Origin: Hyphomicrobiaceae bacterium
GTDB taxonomy: Bacteria > Pseudomonadota > Alphaproteobacteria > Rhizobiales > Hyphomicrobiaceae
DNA: 64,000 nt
Assembly: GCA_025351355.1 (NCBI GenBank)
Contig: JANXWC010000069.1
Span: 1 to 64,000 of the forward strand
Reading direction: 5' to 3'
Shown: positions 6,186-43,177 of the stretch, piece by piece
Position numbering within the stretch: position 1 is the first letter of the stretch
Layout of the letters: every line of letters starts with the position of its first letter
The notes under the pieces: generated by a model
Seen by the model: only the letters and a program-made list of their open reading frames with translations
Told to the model about the DNA's origin: nothing
The model's database searches: none
Position numbers and translations under genes: made by a program

Positions 6186-7916
6186 TCACTTCGTATCCAC
6201 CGTCGCCGTCATCACCTTGACGATTGGTCGCTTGCCCCAGGCGTGATCGATGGTGCTGCGCACGGCTTTCTTAACCATATCCTCGATCTTGTCCTGGTCC
6301 AACCGGCGTTTCGGCGGCACCGATTTTAACGTGTTGTCTATCGCTTCCAGCACGAGGTCGAGCATGTCATGACCGTTGACGTCGGTCTCGGGGATACCGT
6401 CAAGAACGACATCCGGATCGGCCGCGATCTGGCCGCGCGTGTCGAGCACCAACGATACGACGGCGATGCCGACCTGCGCCAGCTTGCGGCGATCGCGCAC
6501 CGGTCCTTCGGTGCTTTCCACCAACAGTCGACCGTCCCGGAAAAGCCGACCAACCGGTGCTTCGTCGATAACGGCACCGGGGCCCGGCGCCAACCTCACG
6601 ATGTCGCCATTGCGGACGACCATTACCTGTGGCACGCCGGCAGCCTTTGCGAGGTCCGCATTCGCCGCCATGTGCCGGGCCTCACCGTGCATGGGGATGG
6701 CGAGCTTCGGCTTCACCCAGGCATACATTTCCTTCAATTCATCGCGCCGGGGATGGCCGGTGACGTGGACCAGCGCGTCCGCGTCGGTGACAATGCGAAT
6801 GCCGCGCTCGACCAGTTTGTTCTGGATGCGACCGACGGTTTTCTCATTGCCAGGAATGGTGCGGGACGAGAAGATGACGGTATCGCGTGCCGTCAGTTTG
6901 ACCACTGGATGTTCATTCTCGGCAATGCGCGACATGGCCGCGCGCTGCTCGCCCTGGCTGCCCGTGCACAACAGCAGCGCTTTTTCCGGCGAAACGTGCT
7001 GGAAATGATCCTGATCGTGAGAACGGAAATCCTTGCTCAGATGGCCGGTCTCGATGGCGACCGCGATCATCCGGTGCATGGCGCGTCCAGCCACGATCAG
7101 TGTCCGCCCGGTTGCTTTCGCGGCGTCCGAGATGGCTTGGATGCGCGCGACGTTGGACGAAAAGATTGTCACTGCCACGGCGCCGCTGCACTTGGCAATG
7201 ATATCAGCCAAGCTCTTGGCAACCTCGGTTTCGGAAGGCGAGCGCCCCTCGCGCATGGCGTTGGTGCTATCGCAGATCAGCGCATCCACGCCCTCGGCAC
7301 CGAGTGCCCGCAGCCGGTTCGCGTCCGTATCAGTGCAACTGCCGTAGGGGGTCGGTTCGATCTTCCAGTCGCCGGTGTGGAGCACCTTGCCGTCGGCCGT
7401 TTTGATCATCAAAGCCTGTGGTTCCGGCACCGAATGCGCCACCGCTACGAATTCCAGATCGAAACCGCCGATCTGAAATTTGCTAGAGACAGGTATTTCC
7501 TTGATCGGAATTTTCGTGCGATTGCCATTCTCGGCCATTTTGGCTTTGATCAGCGTGGCGGTGAACGGAGTTGCATAGACCGGCACCTTGAGGCGCGGCC
7601 ACAATTCGACAAGCGCGCCGAAATGATCCTCGTGCGCATGCGTGATGACGATGCCGCTGAGGCTGACGTGTTCGTCCTCTATGAAGCGCAAATCCGGCAG
7701 GATCACATCGACGCCAGGGTCGAACTCCCCTTCGGGGAAGGTAATGCCGATGTCGACCATCAGCCATTCGCGCTTATCGGCCGGACCGGTGCCGTAGAGA
7801 TAGCAGTTCATGCCGATCTCACCCAGCCCGCCAAGAGCCAGGAACACCAGTTCCGACGCGCCGCCCTTCGCACCGGGCTTGCCGCCCGCGCGCGTCTTCG
7901 ATCGCTGATCTGCCAT
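6186..7916 (-). CDS. rnj: Ribonuclease J
   Basis: Metallo-beta-lactamase/beta-CASP ribonuclease with endo- and 5'-exonuclease activity, acting in RNA decay and rRNA maturation. The 576-residue protein has the zinc motif THAHEDHFGAL near residue 92 and later conserved histidines in VAHSVPEP and VLHTGDWKIEPTP. The beta-CASP part contains CDSTNAMREGRSPSE and LLCTGSQGEQ, and HVTGHPRRDELKEMY and IPMHGEARHM follow. The start MADQRSKTRAGGKPG lies 8 nt from the birA stop, so the two are likely one transcript. Confidence 0.95.
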   Translation of the reverse strand: MADQRSKTRAGGKPGAKGGASELVFLALGGLGEIGMNCYLYGTGPADKREWLMVDIGITFPEGEFDPGVDVILPDLRFIEDEHVSLSGIVITHAHEDHFGALVELWPRLKVPVYATPFTATLIKAKMAENGNRTKIPIKEIPVSSKFQIGGFDLEFVAVAHSVPEPQALMIKTADGKVLHTGDWKIEPTPYGSCTDTDANRLRALGAEGVDALICDSTNAMREGRSPSETEVAKSLADIIAKCSGAVAVTIFSSNVARIQAISDAAKATGRTLIVAGRAMHRMIAVAIETGHLSKDFRSHDQDHFQHVSPEKALLLCTGSQGEQRAAMSRIAENEHPVVKLTARDTVIFSSRTIPGNEKTVGRIQNKLVERGIRIVTDADALVHVTGHPRRDELKEMYAWVKPKLAIPMHGEARHMAANADLAKAAGVPQVMVVRNGDIVRLAPGPGAVIDEAPVGRLFRDGRLLVESTEGPVRDRRKLAQVGIAVVSLVLDTRGQIAADPDVVLDGIPETDVNGHDMLDLVLEAIDNTLKSVPPKRRLDQDKIEDMVKKAVRSTIDHAWGKRPIVKVMTATVDTK

Positions 7917-7924
7917 CTAATCTC

Positions 7925-8884
7925 TTATCCTCGGCCGCGCTCGGCGGCGTTTACCGTCACATCACCAAATGTCATACGCCGGTCGTAGCCGGAATGGTCC
8001 CTCAAGATCAATGCCCCGTCGTAGTCGAGACCCGCAAATTTGCCTTCGACAAGATCGCTGCCGGTATTGATGGTCATCGCGGTGCCCATTGGCAACGCAT
8101 CCGATAACCATCGCTCGCGTATAGTGTCGAAGTCCCCGCCCATGTTCCAGATGGCTAGTTTAGCAGCCATTTCGACGGCCAGGGCATCCAGCATCGTCGC
8201 AGGCGAGACGGACACGTTGTGCGCCGCGAGACACGTCGTCGCGCGTCCCAACTGATCAGGTGCGTGCGCCAGATTTATCCCGACGCCGATCACGGCCAGC
8301 ATGGTCCGGTCGGAGCGCTGCGTACTTTCCGGGAGGATGCCAACAAGTTTTGCGCCGTCGAGCAGAATGTCGTTCGGCCATTTGAGACGCAGGGGGAGCG
8401 GCGCCTGCGGTGAGGAAGGCCCCCTCATCCGGCCTTCGGCCACCTTCTCCCCCAAGGGAGAAGGCATTCCCACCGCTGCTGGCGGGTTTGTCCTCTCCCC
8501 TTGGGGAGAGGATGTCCGCCGGGTGCGAAGGCGCCAAAGATTGGGGACAGTTGACGGGGCCTTCGACACGATCTCCGATGCCCCAGATGACGCAAAGTCA
8601 GCAACTACGCGCCGGATTGCAGCGACGACAGCTACCGCGGCGACGAACGAGAGGTGGTGGACGATCGTCGGGGCGCAAGATAGGTGCAGCAGCAGGCTGG
8701 CGTAGTGATTGCCGGGCTCAGAGGTCCACGCGCGGCCGGAGCGACCGCGGCCGGCGGTCTGCCGGTTGGCACGCACCCACAAAGGCGTGGCGGCGCCAGC
8801 GAGTCCGAGCCGCATGGCTTCCGCGTTGGTCGAACCGATCGCGTCCAATTCGAGGATAAGGATGCCGTTGGGCGTGCGTTTCAT
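7925..8884 (-). CDS. birA: Biotin--[acetyl-CoA-carboxylase] ligase carrying an in-frame repeat insertion
   Basis: Attaches biotin to biotin-dependent carboxylases through biotinyl-5'-AMP. The protein lacks the N-terminal DNA-binding domain, so it is a monofunctional ligase. The start (MKRTPNGILILELDAIGSTN) is at 8882-8884, inside a longer open frame that runs back over nuoN. Catalytic motifs are intact: TAGRGRSGRAW at residues 43-53 and LRLKWPNDILLDG at 165-177. Between them, residues about 97-161 (ASSGASEIVSKAP to GPSSPQAP) have no counterpart in normal BirA, where the two parts are separated by a short helix and loop. The middle of this insert (about 8414-8532) is a palindromic repeat found elsewhere in the window. 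At 319 aa the protein is about 60 residues longer than usual. No clear ribosome binding site precedes the ATG. Confidence 0.9.
   Translation of the reverse strand: MKRTPNGILILELDAIGSTNAEAMRLGLAGAATPLWVRANRQTAGRGRSGRAWTSEPGNHYASLLLHLSCAPTIVHHLSFVAAVAVVAAIRRVVADFASSGASEIVSKAPSTVPNLWRLRTRRTSSPQGERTNPPAAVGMPSPLGEKVAEGRMRGPSSPQAPLPLRLKWPNDILLDGAKLVGILPESTQRSDRTMLAVIGVGINLAHAPDQLGRATTCLAAHNVSVSPATMLDALAVEMAAKLAIWNMGGDFDTIRERWLSDALPMGTAMTINTGSDLVEGKFAGLDYDGALILRDHSGYDRRMTFGDVTVNAAERGRG
8414..8532. repeat. Palindromic repeat element inside birA (same family as 33212-33339)
   Basis: The left end AAGGCCCCCTCATCCGGCCT, the inner CACCTTCTCCCCCAAGGGAG and the inner TCCTCTCCCCTTGGGGAGAG match the intergenic copy between secD and secF closely. 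Its right terminal arm has diverged. On the minus strand it is read as part of BirA (about residues 118-157, including TSSPQGERTNPP and SPLGEKVAEGRMRG) without a stop or frame change. Confidence 0.85.
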
Positions 8885-8991
8885 AGGAGGGGATGTGCCA
8901 TAATTCGCGCCTGCGCGCGAGCGAGGCCAGCCTCGCACTCCGTTGGGCGCAACACCCGCCCGCGTTTTGAGTGAAAAAAACTGCGCCGCGA

Positions 8992-10479
8992 TCAGCCGAA
9001 CAGCGACCGCGCCGCCGCACTCGCCGTGGCGATGATCCAATCGCCCAGCGAGCCATTGCGCAGCGGGAACGGCAAGAACCCCAGCAGCGTGATCAGACAC
9101 GCCAGCGCCATCACCGTGCTCTCGCGCAGCGGCACGCGCATGAAACGGTTCTCGGCGCCTGATTTGGCGTCGTTGACGTACATGACGATGACGATGCGGA
9201 TGTAATAGAATGCACCGACCACGCTGGCGACAACGCCGATGATGGCGAGCGGCCACAGATCCGCCTTCACCGCCGCCAGGAACACGTAATATTTGCCCCA
9301 GAAGCCAGCCAGCGGCGGGATACCGGCCAGCGAGAACATCATGATCGCCATGGTCGCGGCCATGCCGGGATTGGTGGTGGCAAGGCCGGCGAGATCGGCG
9401 ATCTCCTCGACGGGACCACTCCGGCGGCGCATGCACAGCACGACGGCAAACGCGCCCAGCGTCATGACGAGGTAGGTGGCGAGATAGATCAGCACGCCCT
9501 CGATGCCTTCGGGCGAGGCGGCAGCCAACCCGACCAGCACGAAGCCCATGTTGCCGATCGACGAGTAGGCGAGCAGGCGTTTGACGTTGGTCTGGCCGAT
9601 CGCCGCCACCGCACCCAACACCATGGAGGCGATCGACAGGAAGATGATGATCTGCTGCCATTGGGGTTTGATGCCGCCGAACGCGGTGATCATTACGCGG
9701 GTCAGCAGCGCAAAAGCGGCGGCTTTTGGTGCGGCGGCGAACAGGGCGGTGACCGGAGTGGGCGCGCCCTCGTAGACGTCAGGCGTCCACATGTGGAACG
9801 GCACAGCTGAAATCTTGAATGCCAAGCCGACCATCAGGAACACCAGCCCGAAGATCAGGCCGATGTTCTGGCCGGCGCCCTTGGTCAGCGCAACCGCGGC
9901 GATGTCGTTGAAATTGGTGGCCCCGGTGAAGCCATAGACCAGCGACGCCCCATACAGCAGCATGCCCGACGACAGCGCGCCCAGCACGAAATATTTGAGC
10001 CCTGCTTCCGACGAGCGGACATCATCGCGCTTGAATGCGGCGAGCACATAAAGCGCCAGGCTCTGCAGTTCCAGGCTGAGGTAGAGCGAAATCAGGTCAT
10101 TGGCCGAGATCATCATCAGCATGCCCGCCGTCGCCAGCAGCAACAGCACCGCATACTCGAATTTCAGATATTTGCCACGGCGCGCATCGTTGGGCGCCAG
10201 CAGCAGCGCGCCGGCCGACGAGATGATGACGATCATCTTCACGTATCGCGCGAAGGCATCGAAGCGGAAGCTGCCGTCGAACAGCGTGTTGTTGCCGAGC
10301 GGTTGGCGCGCGAGTACGATGCCAGCCAGCGCAAGGACGCCAATAGCTGCCCAGGAAATAATATCAGCCTGCCGCTCAGTTTCTGGCCGGAACGCCCCCC
10401 ACAGCAGCAGCACCATGGCCCCAATGATGAGGATCAGCTCGCTGTGCAGCGGCGCGAGTTCGACGAGGTAACGCGGCAT
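8992..10479 (-). CDS. nuoN: NADH-quinone oxidoreductase subunit N
   Basis: Antiporter-like, proton-pumping membrane subunit of respiratory complex I. The start is the ATG at 10477-10479 (MPRYLVELAPLHSELILIIG), preceded by GGAGATG; an upstream ATG at 10515 has no such site. The 495-aa protein has about 14 membrane helices and the conserved KISAVPFHMWTPDVYEGAPT segment with the key lysine, then KRLLAYSSIGNMGF. It follows nuoM by 142 bp that hold a repeat. The usual partner nuoL is not adjacent but at 45.4-47.4 kb on the other strand. Confidence 0.95.
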   Translation of the reverse strand: MPRYLVELAPLHSELILIIGAMVLLLWGAFRPETERQADIISWAAIGVLALAGIVLARQPLGNNTLFDGSFRFDAFARYVKMIVIISSAGALLLAPNDARRGKYLKFEYAVLLLLATAGMLMMISANDLISLYLSLELQSLALYVLAAFKRDDVRSSEAGLKYFVLGALSSGMLLYGASLVYGFTGATNFNDIAAVALTKGAGQNIGLIFGLVFLMVGLAFKISAVPFHMWTPDVYEGAPTPVTALFAAAPKAAAFALLTRVMITAFGGIKPQWQQIIIFLSIASMVLGAVAAIGQTNVKRLLAYSSIGNMGFVLVGLAAASPEGIEGVLIYLATYLVMTLGAFAVVLCMRRRSGPVEEIADLAGLATTNPGMAATMAIMMFSLAGIPPLAGFWGKYYVFLAAVKADLWPLAIIGVVASVVGAFYYIRIVIVMYVNDAKSGAENRFMRVPLRESTVMALACLITLLGFLPFPLRNGSLGDWIIATASAAARSLFG

Positions 10480-33178: not shown

Positions 33179-33211
33179 GGGGCGTGGACCTTGTCGGATG
33201 CGGAGTTTGGC

Positions 33212-33339
33212 AAAGGCCCCCTCATGCGGCCTTCGGCTACCTTCTCCCCAAGGGCAGAAGGCAGTGTGGCGGGCGATGGTGCCACGATTTCCTCTCCCCC
33301 TGGGGAGAGGATGCCCGAAGGGCAGGTGAGGGGGCCTTT
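33212..33339. repeat. Palindromic repeat element between secD and secF
   Basis: The ends AAAGGCCCCCTCA (33212-33224) and TGAGGGGGCCTTT (33327-33339) are perfect reverse complements. Two inner blocks form nested hairpins (GGCCTTCGGC; CCTTCTCCCCAAGGGCAGAAGG; CTCTCCCCCTGGGGAGAG). The 128-bp element belongs to the family also found inside birA. Repeats with a CTCTCCCC-GGGGAGAG core are widespread in Hyphomicrobiales. Confidence 0.88.
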
Positions 33340-33376
33340 GGGAGCCATGGTCATGCTGGATCGGACCGAATTTTAT

Positions 33377-41364: not shown

Positions 41365-41500
41365 CGTCATGGCCGCGCAGGCGGCCATCCACGACAAATC
41401 TCTTTGGACACGAAGCCAGCCACTGCAATGACTTTGAATTTCACCGCTTGCTCTGATTTGCCGTCCGCTGTCGTGGATGGCCGCCTGCGCGGCCATGACG
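41365..41500. repeat. REPIN-like element: perfect 32-bp inverted repeat between nuoG and nuoH
   Basis: The arms at 41365-41396 and 41469-41500 are exact reverse complements over 32 bp, separated by 72 bp. Each arm contains its own small palindrome, GGCCGCGCAGGCGGCC. A related pair lies at 43009-43177. The structure, two inverted palindromic units with a spacer, is that of a REP doublet. Confidence 0.92.
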
Positions 41501-41555
41501 ATGGGTGGATGGCCATGGCGGTGGCCGCACCGCACCGAGTTGGGAAAGCATCCTG

Positions 41556-42614
41556 ATGTATCCAAAAACTCTCGACACCTGGTGGGATTGGGGCCTCTGG
41601 CTCGCGTTGACGGTCGGCCTCAGCCTGCTGCTGCTGGTGGTGCTGTTGGTCATCGTCGCGTTCCTGCTGCTGATGGATCGCAAGGTGTGGGCGGCGGTGC
41701 AGATGCGGCGCGGCCCCAACGTGGTTGGCCCGTTCGGCCTGCTGCAATCGTTCGCTGACCTGCTGAAATTCGTGCTCAAGGAGCCGTTGATCCCCGCCGG
41801 CGCCGATAAGGGTGTGTTCCTGCTCGCCCCACTGGTCACGGCCATCCTGGCGCTCGCCGCCTGGGCCGTCATCCCCGTCGGCAACGGCATGGCGATGGCC
41901 AACATCAACGTCGGCATTCTCTACCTGTTCGCCATTTCCTCGCTCGGCGTCTACGGCATCATCATGGGCGGCTGGGCGTCCAACTCGAAATATCCGTTCC
42001 TCGGCGCGCTCCGTTCGGCGGCGCAGATGGTGTCCTACGAGGTCTCGATCGGCTTTGTCATCATCACCGTGTTGTTGTGCGCGGGGTCGCTCAATCTCAA
42101 CGACATCATCAAGGCCCAGCAAGTCGGCATCGGCACACGCGTCGGCCTGCCCGCGAGCTTCCTTGACTGGTATTGGCTGCCGCTGTTCCCGATGTTTGTT
42201 GTCTTCTTCATCTCGGCTCTGGCGGAGACCAACCGTCCCCCGTTCGATCTAGTGGAAGCGGAATCGGAACTCGTCGCCGGATTCATGGTCGAATACGGCT
42301 CGACGCCCTACCTGCTGTTCATGCTTGGCGAGTACGTGGCCATCGTCACCATGTGCGCGATGACGTCGATCCTGTTCCTCGGCGGCTGGCTCCCTCCGCT
42401 CGACATCGCGCCGCTCAACTGGATCCCCGGACCGCTGTGGTTCCTGCTCAAGATCACCTTCGTGTTTTTCATGTTCGCCATGGTGAAAGCCATGGTCCCC
42501 CGTTACCGCTACGATCAACTCATGCGCCTCGGCTGGAAAATCTTCCTGCCGCTGTCGCTGGTGATGGTCGTCGTCGTCGCCGGCCTCCTCCAATTCGGCC
42601 CCCAGGTGCGGTGA
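41556..42614 (+). CDS. nuoH: NADH-quinone oxidoreductase subunit H
   Basis: Membrane subunit next to the quinone site of complex I. The start ATG 41556 ([20 protein letters not shown]) follows GGGAAAG; an upstream in-frame start would lie within the repeat. The 352-aa protein has the NuoH motifs [40 protein letters not shown], and [27 protein letters not shown] in the acidic quinone-chamber loop. Its stop overlaps the start of the next small ORF by one base. Confidence 0.96.
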
Positions 42615-43000
42615 TGTTGCAATCGCTGACGTCACTTACAGTTGAGCAAAAGATTGTAGTCTGGTTCACTGCCTTTTGCGCTGCCGGCGTTTTCGTATCT
42701 GTAGTCGCTTTGCCAGCAAAACCAACTTGGGTTAGTACCATCATTTGGTTTGCTTTTGGGGTTGGCATTTGCGACTGGATTTTAACTTTGATCAAGCAAA
42801 GCGTGCCGTCCTTCGGAGACTCTAAATTTTTTGGTGCGATTGCGCTGGCAGGGAACGCCGCAGTTGCAGCAGTTTGCGGTCGATATTGTGTTTCACCTGC
42901 ACAAAGGTCGGCTGGCGTAGTGCGATTGGTTTTCTATGCCATAGCAGCAATTCTTCTCGGAGCTGCCGCAGTCGTTACAATATGGGCTTGGACAAGGTAA
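42614..43000 (+). CDS. Hypothetical four-helix membrane protein inserted between nuoH and nuoI
   Basis: The ATG at 42614 shares a base with the nuoH stop (TGATG), so it is positioned for translational coupling. The 128-aa product starts [20 protein letters not shown] and has about four helices (VWFTAFCAAGVFVSVVALPA, WVSTIIWFAFGVGICDWILT, FFGAIALAGNAAVAAVCGRY, LVFYAIAAILLGAAAVVTIW). It matches no nuo subunit, and in ordinary nuo operons nuoI follows nuoH directly. Base use is clearly richer in A and T than in nuoH and nuoI, which suggests recent acquisition. A REPIN-like repeat begins 9 bp after its stop. Confidence 0.72.
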   Translation: MLQSLTSLTVEQKIVVWFTAFCAAGVFVSVVALPAKPTWVSTIIWFAFGVGICDWILTLIKQSVPSFGDSKFFGAIALAGNAAVAAVCGRYCVSPAQRSAGVVRLVFYAIAAILLGAAAVVTIWAWTR

Positions 43001-43008
43001 ATAGTTGA

Positions 43009-43177
43009 CTTGCTTGGGTGGCCGCCTTCGCGGGCATGACGACGATAGAGTGGTGAGTGCGTAGACGTGAAATTAGAACGCAAGCCGAATGAACATCGCA
43101 AGACGGATCACGTCACTTTCTCCCAGAAAACCCACCCCATCCACCGTCATGGCCGCGTAGGCGGCCACCCAAGCAAG
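43009..43177. repeat. REPIN-like inverted repeat between the 128-aa ORF and nuoI
   Basis: The arms at 43009-43041 and 43145-43177 are reverse complements over 33 bp with a few mismatches, around a spacer of about 100 bp. The core CGTCATGGCCGCG-AGGCGGCCA is shared with the arms at 41365-41500, so the two elements are one family. They flank nuoH plus the 128-aa ORF. Confidence 0.88.

Follow-up and report, generated by a model that had tools for sequence, protein, structure and literature searches.

The birA gene of this member of the Hyphomicrobiaceae raises the question of how biotin ligase, normally an essential enzyme, came to be encoded by a frame that runs through a palindromic DNA repeat. 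The window is the whole 64,000-nucleotide stretch of DNA that was analysed. A preliminary description of the window had placed a palindromic repeat in frame inside birA, and both the repeat copy and the open frame were found at the following positions.

7925-8884, minus strand: birA, biotin protein ligase (319 aa; one open frame running through the repeat, with a plausible ATG start).
8732-8752, minus strand: GRGRSGR motif of BirA.
8369-8383, minus strand: KWPND motif of BirA.
8414-8599, minus strand: about 62 extra codons compared with other BirA (approximately residues 96-157; the placement is ambiguous by a few codons).
8414-8565, plus strand: near-full-length copy of the palindromic repeat, long form, in birA (8417-8563, E = 8.7e-27; 8416-8563, E = 2.9e-29).

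The birA product was identified as a biotin protein ligase by a catalytic domain that contains both GRGRxGR and KWPND; we take GRGRSGR and KWPND to be the ligase catalytic motifs. Pfam analysis detected BPL_LplA_LipB in two stretches (1.2e-15) and scored BPL_C at 19.7 bits, slightly below the 21-bit cut-off. Every one of the 50 listed fold matches is either a biotin ligase or the biotin repressor-ligase BirA. An Rfam search over positions 7900-9000 returned five matches with E-values up to 1, all far under the gathering scores. The preliminary description had allowed for an intact birA elsewhere in the genome, and no second birA was found there because the 12 other own-genome matches to the query all fell in its repeat part. 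The assembly comprises 266 contigs, is 97.98% complete and has birA within a 113-kb contig.

The distance from GRG to KWPND was used to compare BirA proteins. The window's genome is designated G000, G001 to G004 are the other genomes of the same genus and G014 belongs to another genus; the five genus genomes are assemblies of 266 to 670 contigs. The motifs are 123 residues apart in the birA product versus 61-62 in G002, G003 and G004. A survey of the BirA loop covered 110 loci (30 + 80), eight of them without the motif pair and 102 measurable. The distance is 45-69 residues in 100 of the 102, a count that leans to normal values because the motif pair closest to 60 was taken, and with two duplicates removed (L012/L098 and L026/L102) 98 of 100 distinct BirA are normal. 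The two outliers are the window's BirA (123 residues) and the G014 BirA (94 residues). The insert is present in one of the five genus genomes only. Relatives with the same 60 residues, the second outcome that had been foreseen, were looked for and the relatives are without them. The alignment with relatives that had been proposed placed the insert within about 10 bases of the span first given for the extra residues (8404-8596).

The insert peptide is roughly 60 residues long and rich in Pro, Ser and Arg, and the preliminary description expected it to be disordered. The AlphaFold2 model of BirA, computed from an alignment of 30 sequences, has a mean pLDDT of 84.9. Residues 101-160 have block means of 41-59 and form no helix or strand, and this segment sits between a helix (residues 72-99) and a strand (residues 165-168). 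Of the remaining blocks, 23 of 26 are at pLDDT 90-98, and the ligase core is kept in the model. The model agrees with the expectation and predicts that the insert is a disordered loop. The open frame, the normally essential enzyme and the failure to find a second copy suggest that the repeat is translated.

The architecture of the repeat was defined from the birA copy, a copy elsewhere in the window and further copies in the genome.

8416-8466, plus strand: left arm of the birA repeat copy, one hairpin unit.
8491-8565, plus strand: right arm of the birA repeat copy, inverted relative to the left arm and including an inner segment at about 8518-8551.
33211-33340, plus strand: second copy of the birA repeat, beside secF (profile E = 1.2e-30).

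The repeat family is palindromic and about 125 bp long, and its long form reaches about 150 bp. Sixteen own-genome copies align to a 127-position model that consists of two inverted hairpin units around a variable spacer, and the birA repeat thus has two REP units in inverted order, as in REPINs. An extra inner segment, of two kinds, occurs in four copies (birA, C93, C187 and C113), and an outer inverted flank like TTTGAC...GTCAAA is visible by eye at some intergenic copies. The preliminary description gave the correct start for the birA copy (8414) but ended it at 8532; the copy runs to 8565 and takes in the right arm and the inner segment. The birA copy is 90% identical over 51 nt and 88% identical over 33 nt to the copy at 33211-33340. 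The latter had been placed between secD and secF, and the gene flanking it on one side is secF by Pfam, which confirms that side of the placement.

The repeat has at least 36 matches in its own genome by DNA search and at least 54 by sequence model, with some copies counted on both strands; these counts are lower bounds from the best 40 of 49 candidates in the DNA search and the best 150 of 1636 in G000 in the model search. A DNA search of 60 genomes scored up to 13 matches per genome, so its counts are also lower bounds. At least 19 own-genome copies cover most of the model in a profile search of sampled stretches. The RNA of four in-gene copies and one intergenic copy folds better than shuffles (z = -3.5 to -6.5), with 2 of 200 shuffles folding as well as the copy in a BatA-like gene. 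The scattered copies suggest that the repeat is mobile or was once mobile, and no transposase was identified. RAYT (Y1_Tnp, PF01797) was not found in the own genome (0 of 1), a result that is not final because the assembly is 98% complete; a control search found it in 5 of 14 genomes.

A blastn search detected relatives of the repeat in plasmids of Sinorhizobium, Rhizobium and Shinella (108 records); the match spans 80% or more of the repeat query in only 15 of these records. Among the 60 plasmid matches listed, 55 have no annotated feature beneath them, the gene table being incomplete, and 5 are in unannotated records. A printed copy of the repeat was not found by sequence strings in a literature search missing most subscription journals. 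Further literature searches used the names RIME and CerM and palindromic or REP inserts in genes, and they are not proof that the repeat is undescribed. The window also contains, at 41365-43177, inverted repeats such as CGTCATGGCCGC... and its complement, which resemble CGTC-tagged REPs.

Three of the 19 long own-genome copies are inside genes (birA, carB and the BatA-like gene), and all three are in frame. The preliminary description considered in-gene copies unusual. Genes are indeed a minority location for this repeat, but birA is joined by carB and the BatA-like gene, and intragenic in-frame REPs have been described in the section of PMC3733652 devoted to them. In the BatA-like protein the BatA and DUF4159 domains flank the repeat (Pfam), and the linker is shorter in 7 of 7 matching relatives (8 searched), by 71-74 residues in G001, G002 and G004. 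A second repeat-like stretch, GTPSPGAWEGWGEGA, lies just before the BatA-like element (L050, contig C166 of G000) and is similar at the DNA level to an insert in the G000 tRNA synthetase.

The carB copy in G000 is located in the linker that joins the two halves of the synthase. The sister species G002 has the repeat at the same linker in the opposite orientation, the model scores on the two strands being 106.1 versus 63.4 bits in G000 and 98.9 versus 66.9 in G002. The G004 carB contig (C199, L188) starts inside a repeat at the linker point, as expected if assemblies break at this repeat, and G004 carB probably carries the repeat as well. The linker is empty in G001, and in the other relatives with two CarB matches listed the matches are at most about 16 codons apart; a CarB match was not found in G003 and G031. 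The G000 and G002 inserts are 77% identical in element orientation and 73% identical in gene orientation, compared with a mean of 81% over all pairs of 24 repeat copies. Base identity leaves the orthology of the inserts undecided, because the gene-orientation value is below the element-orientation value and both are below the all-pair mean. The shared position and junction favour one old insertion, and the opposite orientation favours replacement or flipping.

A Pfam scan of 38 frames at or near copies, including CarB and the BatA-like protein, showed no family broken by the repeat, and copies with Pfam families on both flanks had a different one on each side. Some gene-breaking copies may be missed because they were sought only via the Pfam families of flanking frames; the flanks outside the resolved scan are C13 left, C93 left, C160 left, secF upstream, C51:11028 right, L064 and L178. 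Long frames over copies were set aside as chance at L195 and L202, which have no Pfam family, and by eye at L178, L301 and L305. Elements before secF, engB, DCD, ABC-F and enoyl-CoA hydratase have open frames but lie, on reading, upstream of the likely starts and were rejected as in-gene copies. For the related half-size repeats of other genera, 20 places picked by long open frames or strong matches were checked, and such repeats are in frame in PolA of G022 (L304), MnmE of G096 (L313) and a phage-type terminase of G035 (L303).

The birA insert is very probably a non-autonomous palindromic repeat that inserted in frame in a tolerant BirA loop and is translated and tolerated rather than useful. 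The proposed sequence of events starts with a repeat of two REP-like hairpin units in inverted order, which would have inserted in the variable BirA loop that connects the long helix to the KWPND strand. The gene would have survived because the insertion lengthened it by a whole number of codons and the repeat entered a frame without a stop. The repeat would now be translated as a disordered loop outside the catalytic motifs, and in-gene copies would be retained at sites with an open frame and a loop or linker flexible enough to accommodate the peptide.

Selection for a useful insert, a basic Pro-rich loop with a role in BirA regulation or in binding to a partner or nucleic acid, appears improbable. 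Two observations would suit a function: the insert adjoins the KWPND strand in the AlphaFold2 model, and at least two species have retained the carB insert in frame. However, BirA of the four other genus genomes does without the insert, the insert is predicted to be disordered, and conservation of the carB insert (77% between G000 and G002) does not exceed that of other copies (81% mean). The BirA loop takes another repeat in G014, which also points to tolerance.

Because the repeat DNA is nearly its own reverse complement, its six frames collapse to three peptide classes. The class A peptide, NTPSSGLRPPSPQGEK...SPLGERMSEGQVRG, is open in most copies; the class B peptide, HPLIRPSATFSPRGEG...LSPWGEDVRRAGEG, is open in some copies; and class C carries a TGA. 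The search for copies in other coding sequences that the preliminary description had proposed yielded carB and the BatA-like gene in the same class as birA, and class A is used by all four full-element mid-gene copies found (BirA, BatA-like, CarB in G000 and CarB in G002). The carB copies of G000 and G002 are both class A despite their opposite orientations. The mid-gene full-element copies represent at least three insertion events, and three class A events are too few for a firm frame bias, with a chance of 1 in 9 for three equal classes or 1 in 4 for two open classes. Class A is not a rule because class B occurs as well among the half-size repeats of other genera, as in PolA of G022.

Selection for a stop-free frame, as the preliminary description suggested, was not established. 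The mean number of open frames of six is 3.0 in 16 copies versus 2.8 in dinucleotide shuffles, which argues against it. Among 20 copies taken as non-genic, including seven from G002 and G004 without a flank scan, class A is stop-free in 15, class B in 7 and class C in 0 (Fisher P = 0.025 for A versus B). A neutral simulation at 8-12% divergence expects about 10-13 stop-free copies for class A, about 9-12 for class B and fewer than 1 for class C, and the mean divergence of the 20 copies from the consensus arms is 11.5%. The binomial P for at least 15 stop-free class A copies is 0.03-0.22 according to the divergence assumed, and these P values flatter the class A signal because the copies are related. 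The 15-to-7 excess is not explained by plain tolerance and is a weak hint of more than the survival of readable frames. Of the three classes A is the most readable, and its use in genes needs no explanation beyond the survival of readable copies.

Removal of the repeat from the RNA or its bypass by the ribosome, which would make the open frame coincidental, is very unlikely. The repeat RNA does fold into a strong hairpin, and palindromic inserts are bypassed in the mitochondria of a yeast according to the portion of PMC6649704 that treats them, but the mid-gene copies are in frame and stop-free, which neither process requires, although the search used open frames. The least probable account is an assembly artefact in which the repeat wrongly joined two birA fragments, for although the genome is in 266 contigs and contigs end in the repeat (C199 of G004), the birA halves are in the right order and frame inside the 113-kb contig and the carB repeat is at the same linker in two separate assemblies.

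Insertion of a tolerated repeat in the BirA loop has a counterpart in G014, where 94 residues separate the motifs and the extra DNA is a different repeat (L037, plus strand, 401-523) with 10 further matches within the G014 genome. Two repeat families thus entered the same BirA loop. Inserts also occur in a tRNA synthetase of class I (Pfam tRNA-synt_1), read from its sequence as a putative IleRS. One site holds one and the same repeat, of a family other than the birA repeat, in frame in G000 (L349, contig C212) and G002 (L348). The site in G004 (L187) holds the birA repeat family as two single units in permuted order, again in frame, and the site is empty in G001 (L350), which has a repeat-like insert further on at a second site. 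A TAG within the G000 match lies before the start codon. The G004 tRNA synthetase (L187) also contains a further insert resembling a CGTC-type repeat.

The BirA loop before KWPND, the CarB mid-linker and the tRNA synthetase site (IleRS by reading) may be recurrent landing sites for unrelated palindromic repeats, with resident palindromes flipped or replaced in place without frame loss, a proposal that we make tentatively and regard as somewhat doubtful. Flipping or replacement would spare the frame because the reverse complement of a palindrome encodes nearly the same peptide. If the proposal is true, no other kind of repeat would be as well suited to residence within genes as palindromes, and such residence could have left its mark in the smaller number of stops in class A.

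The birA repeat can be compared with RIME1, which has two palindromes per element. The birA repeat likewise has two palindromes and has relatives among rhizobial plasmid repeats, the likeness to RIME being by description. RIME is listed among the rhizobial intergenic palindromic repeats in the relevant part of PMC2573895. Caulobacter CIR, as outlined in PMC2229807, measures about 110 bp and has two hairpin arms. The birA repeat shares this two-armed form and an alphaproteobacterial host, but its consensus contains by eye no GANTC, unlike CIR with its conserved GANTC methylation site. MITEs carry terminal inverted repeats and a target-site duplication. The birA repeat is an inverted repeat in itself, and the TTTGAC...GTCAAA-like ends seen by eye at some intergenic copies did not establish a duplication.

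The closest precedents for insertion in genes are the Rickettsia palindromic elements (RPE) and intragenic REPs. RPE are 105-146 bp palindromic repeats located between genes and in frame in conserved genes (Ogata 2000, 2002, as summarized in PMC2229807), and a guanylate kinase with an RPE insert is active with altered substrate affinity (same summary). The birA repeat is also palindromic and occurs both between genes and in frame within genes, and the preliminary comparison with RPE held in effect. The birA repeat has a different host, and the likeness, drawn by description, is in the mode of insertion. GTAG- and CGTC-tagged REPs, either single or as dimers, lie within the ORFs of conserved genes, among them those for DNA polymerase I and tRNA synthetases, and different REPs occupy about the same recB site in X. 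campestris and X. oryzae (PMC3733652, section on intragenic REPs). The birA repeat resembles these REPs in its in-frame copies within conserved genes and in the reuse of sites by different repeats. It differs in being longer and in having neither tag at its consensus end (16 copies, by eye), and BirA and CarB are not named as REP targets in that section. In-frame palindromic inserts were thus already known from RPE and intragenic REPs, and the new elements here are an untagged repeat, new target enzymes and several nearby insert-free species.

With these results, in-frame palindromic inserts now include another repeat family, and in the Hyphomicrobiaceae the proteins that carry them include biotin ligase and carbamoyl-phosphate synthase; nearby species that lack the insert serve as natural controls. 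The inserts show where essential enzymes have loops that can accommodate 30-60 foreign residues. They also provide a simple test of how repeats enter genes, since palindromes offer three peptides and not six.
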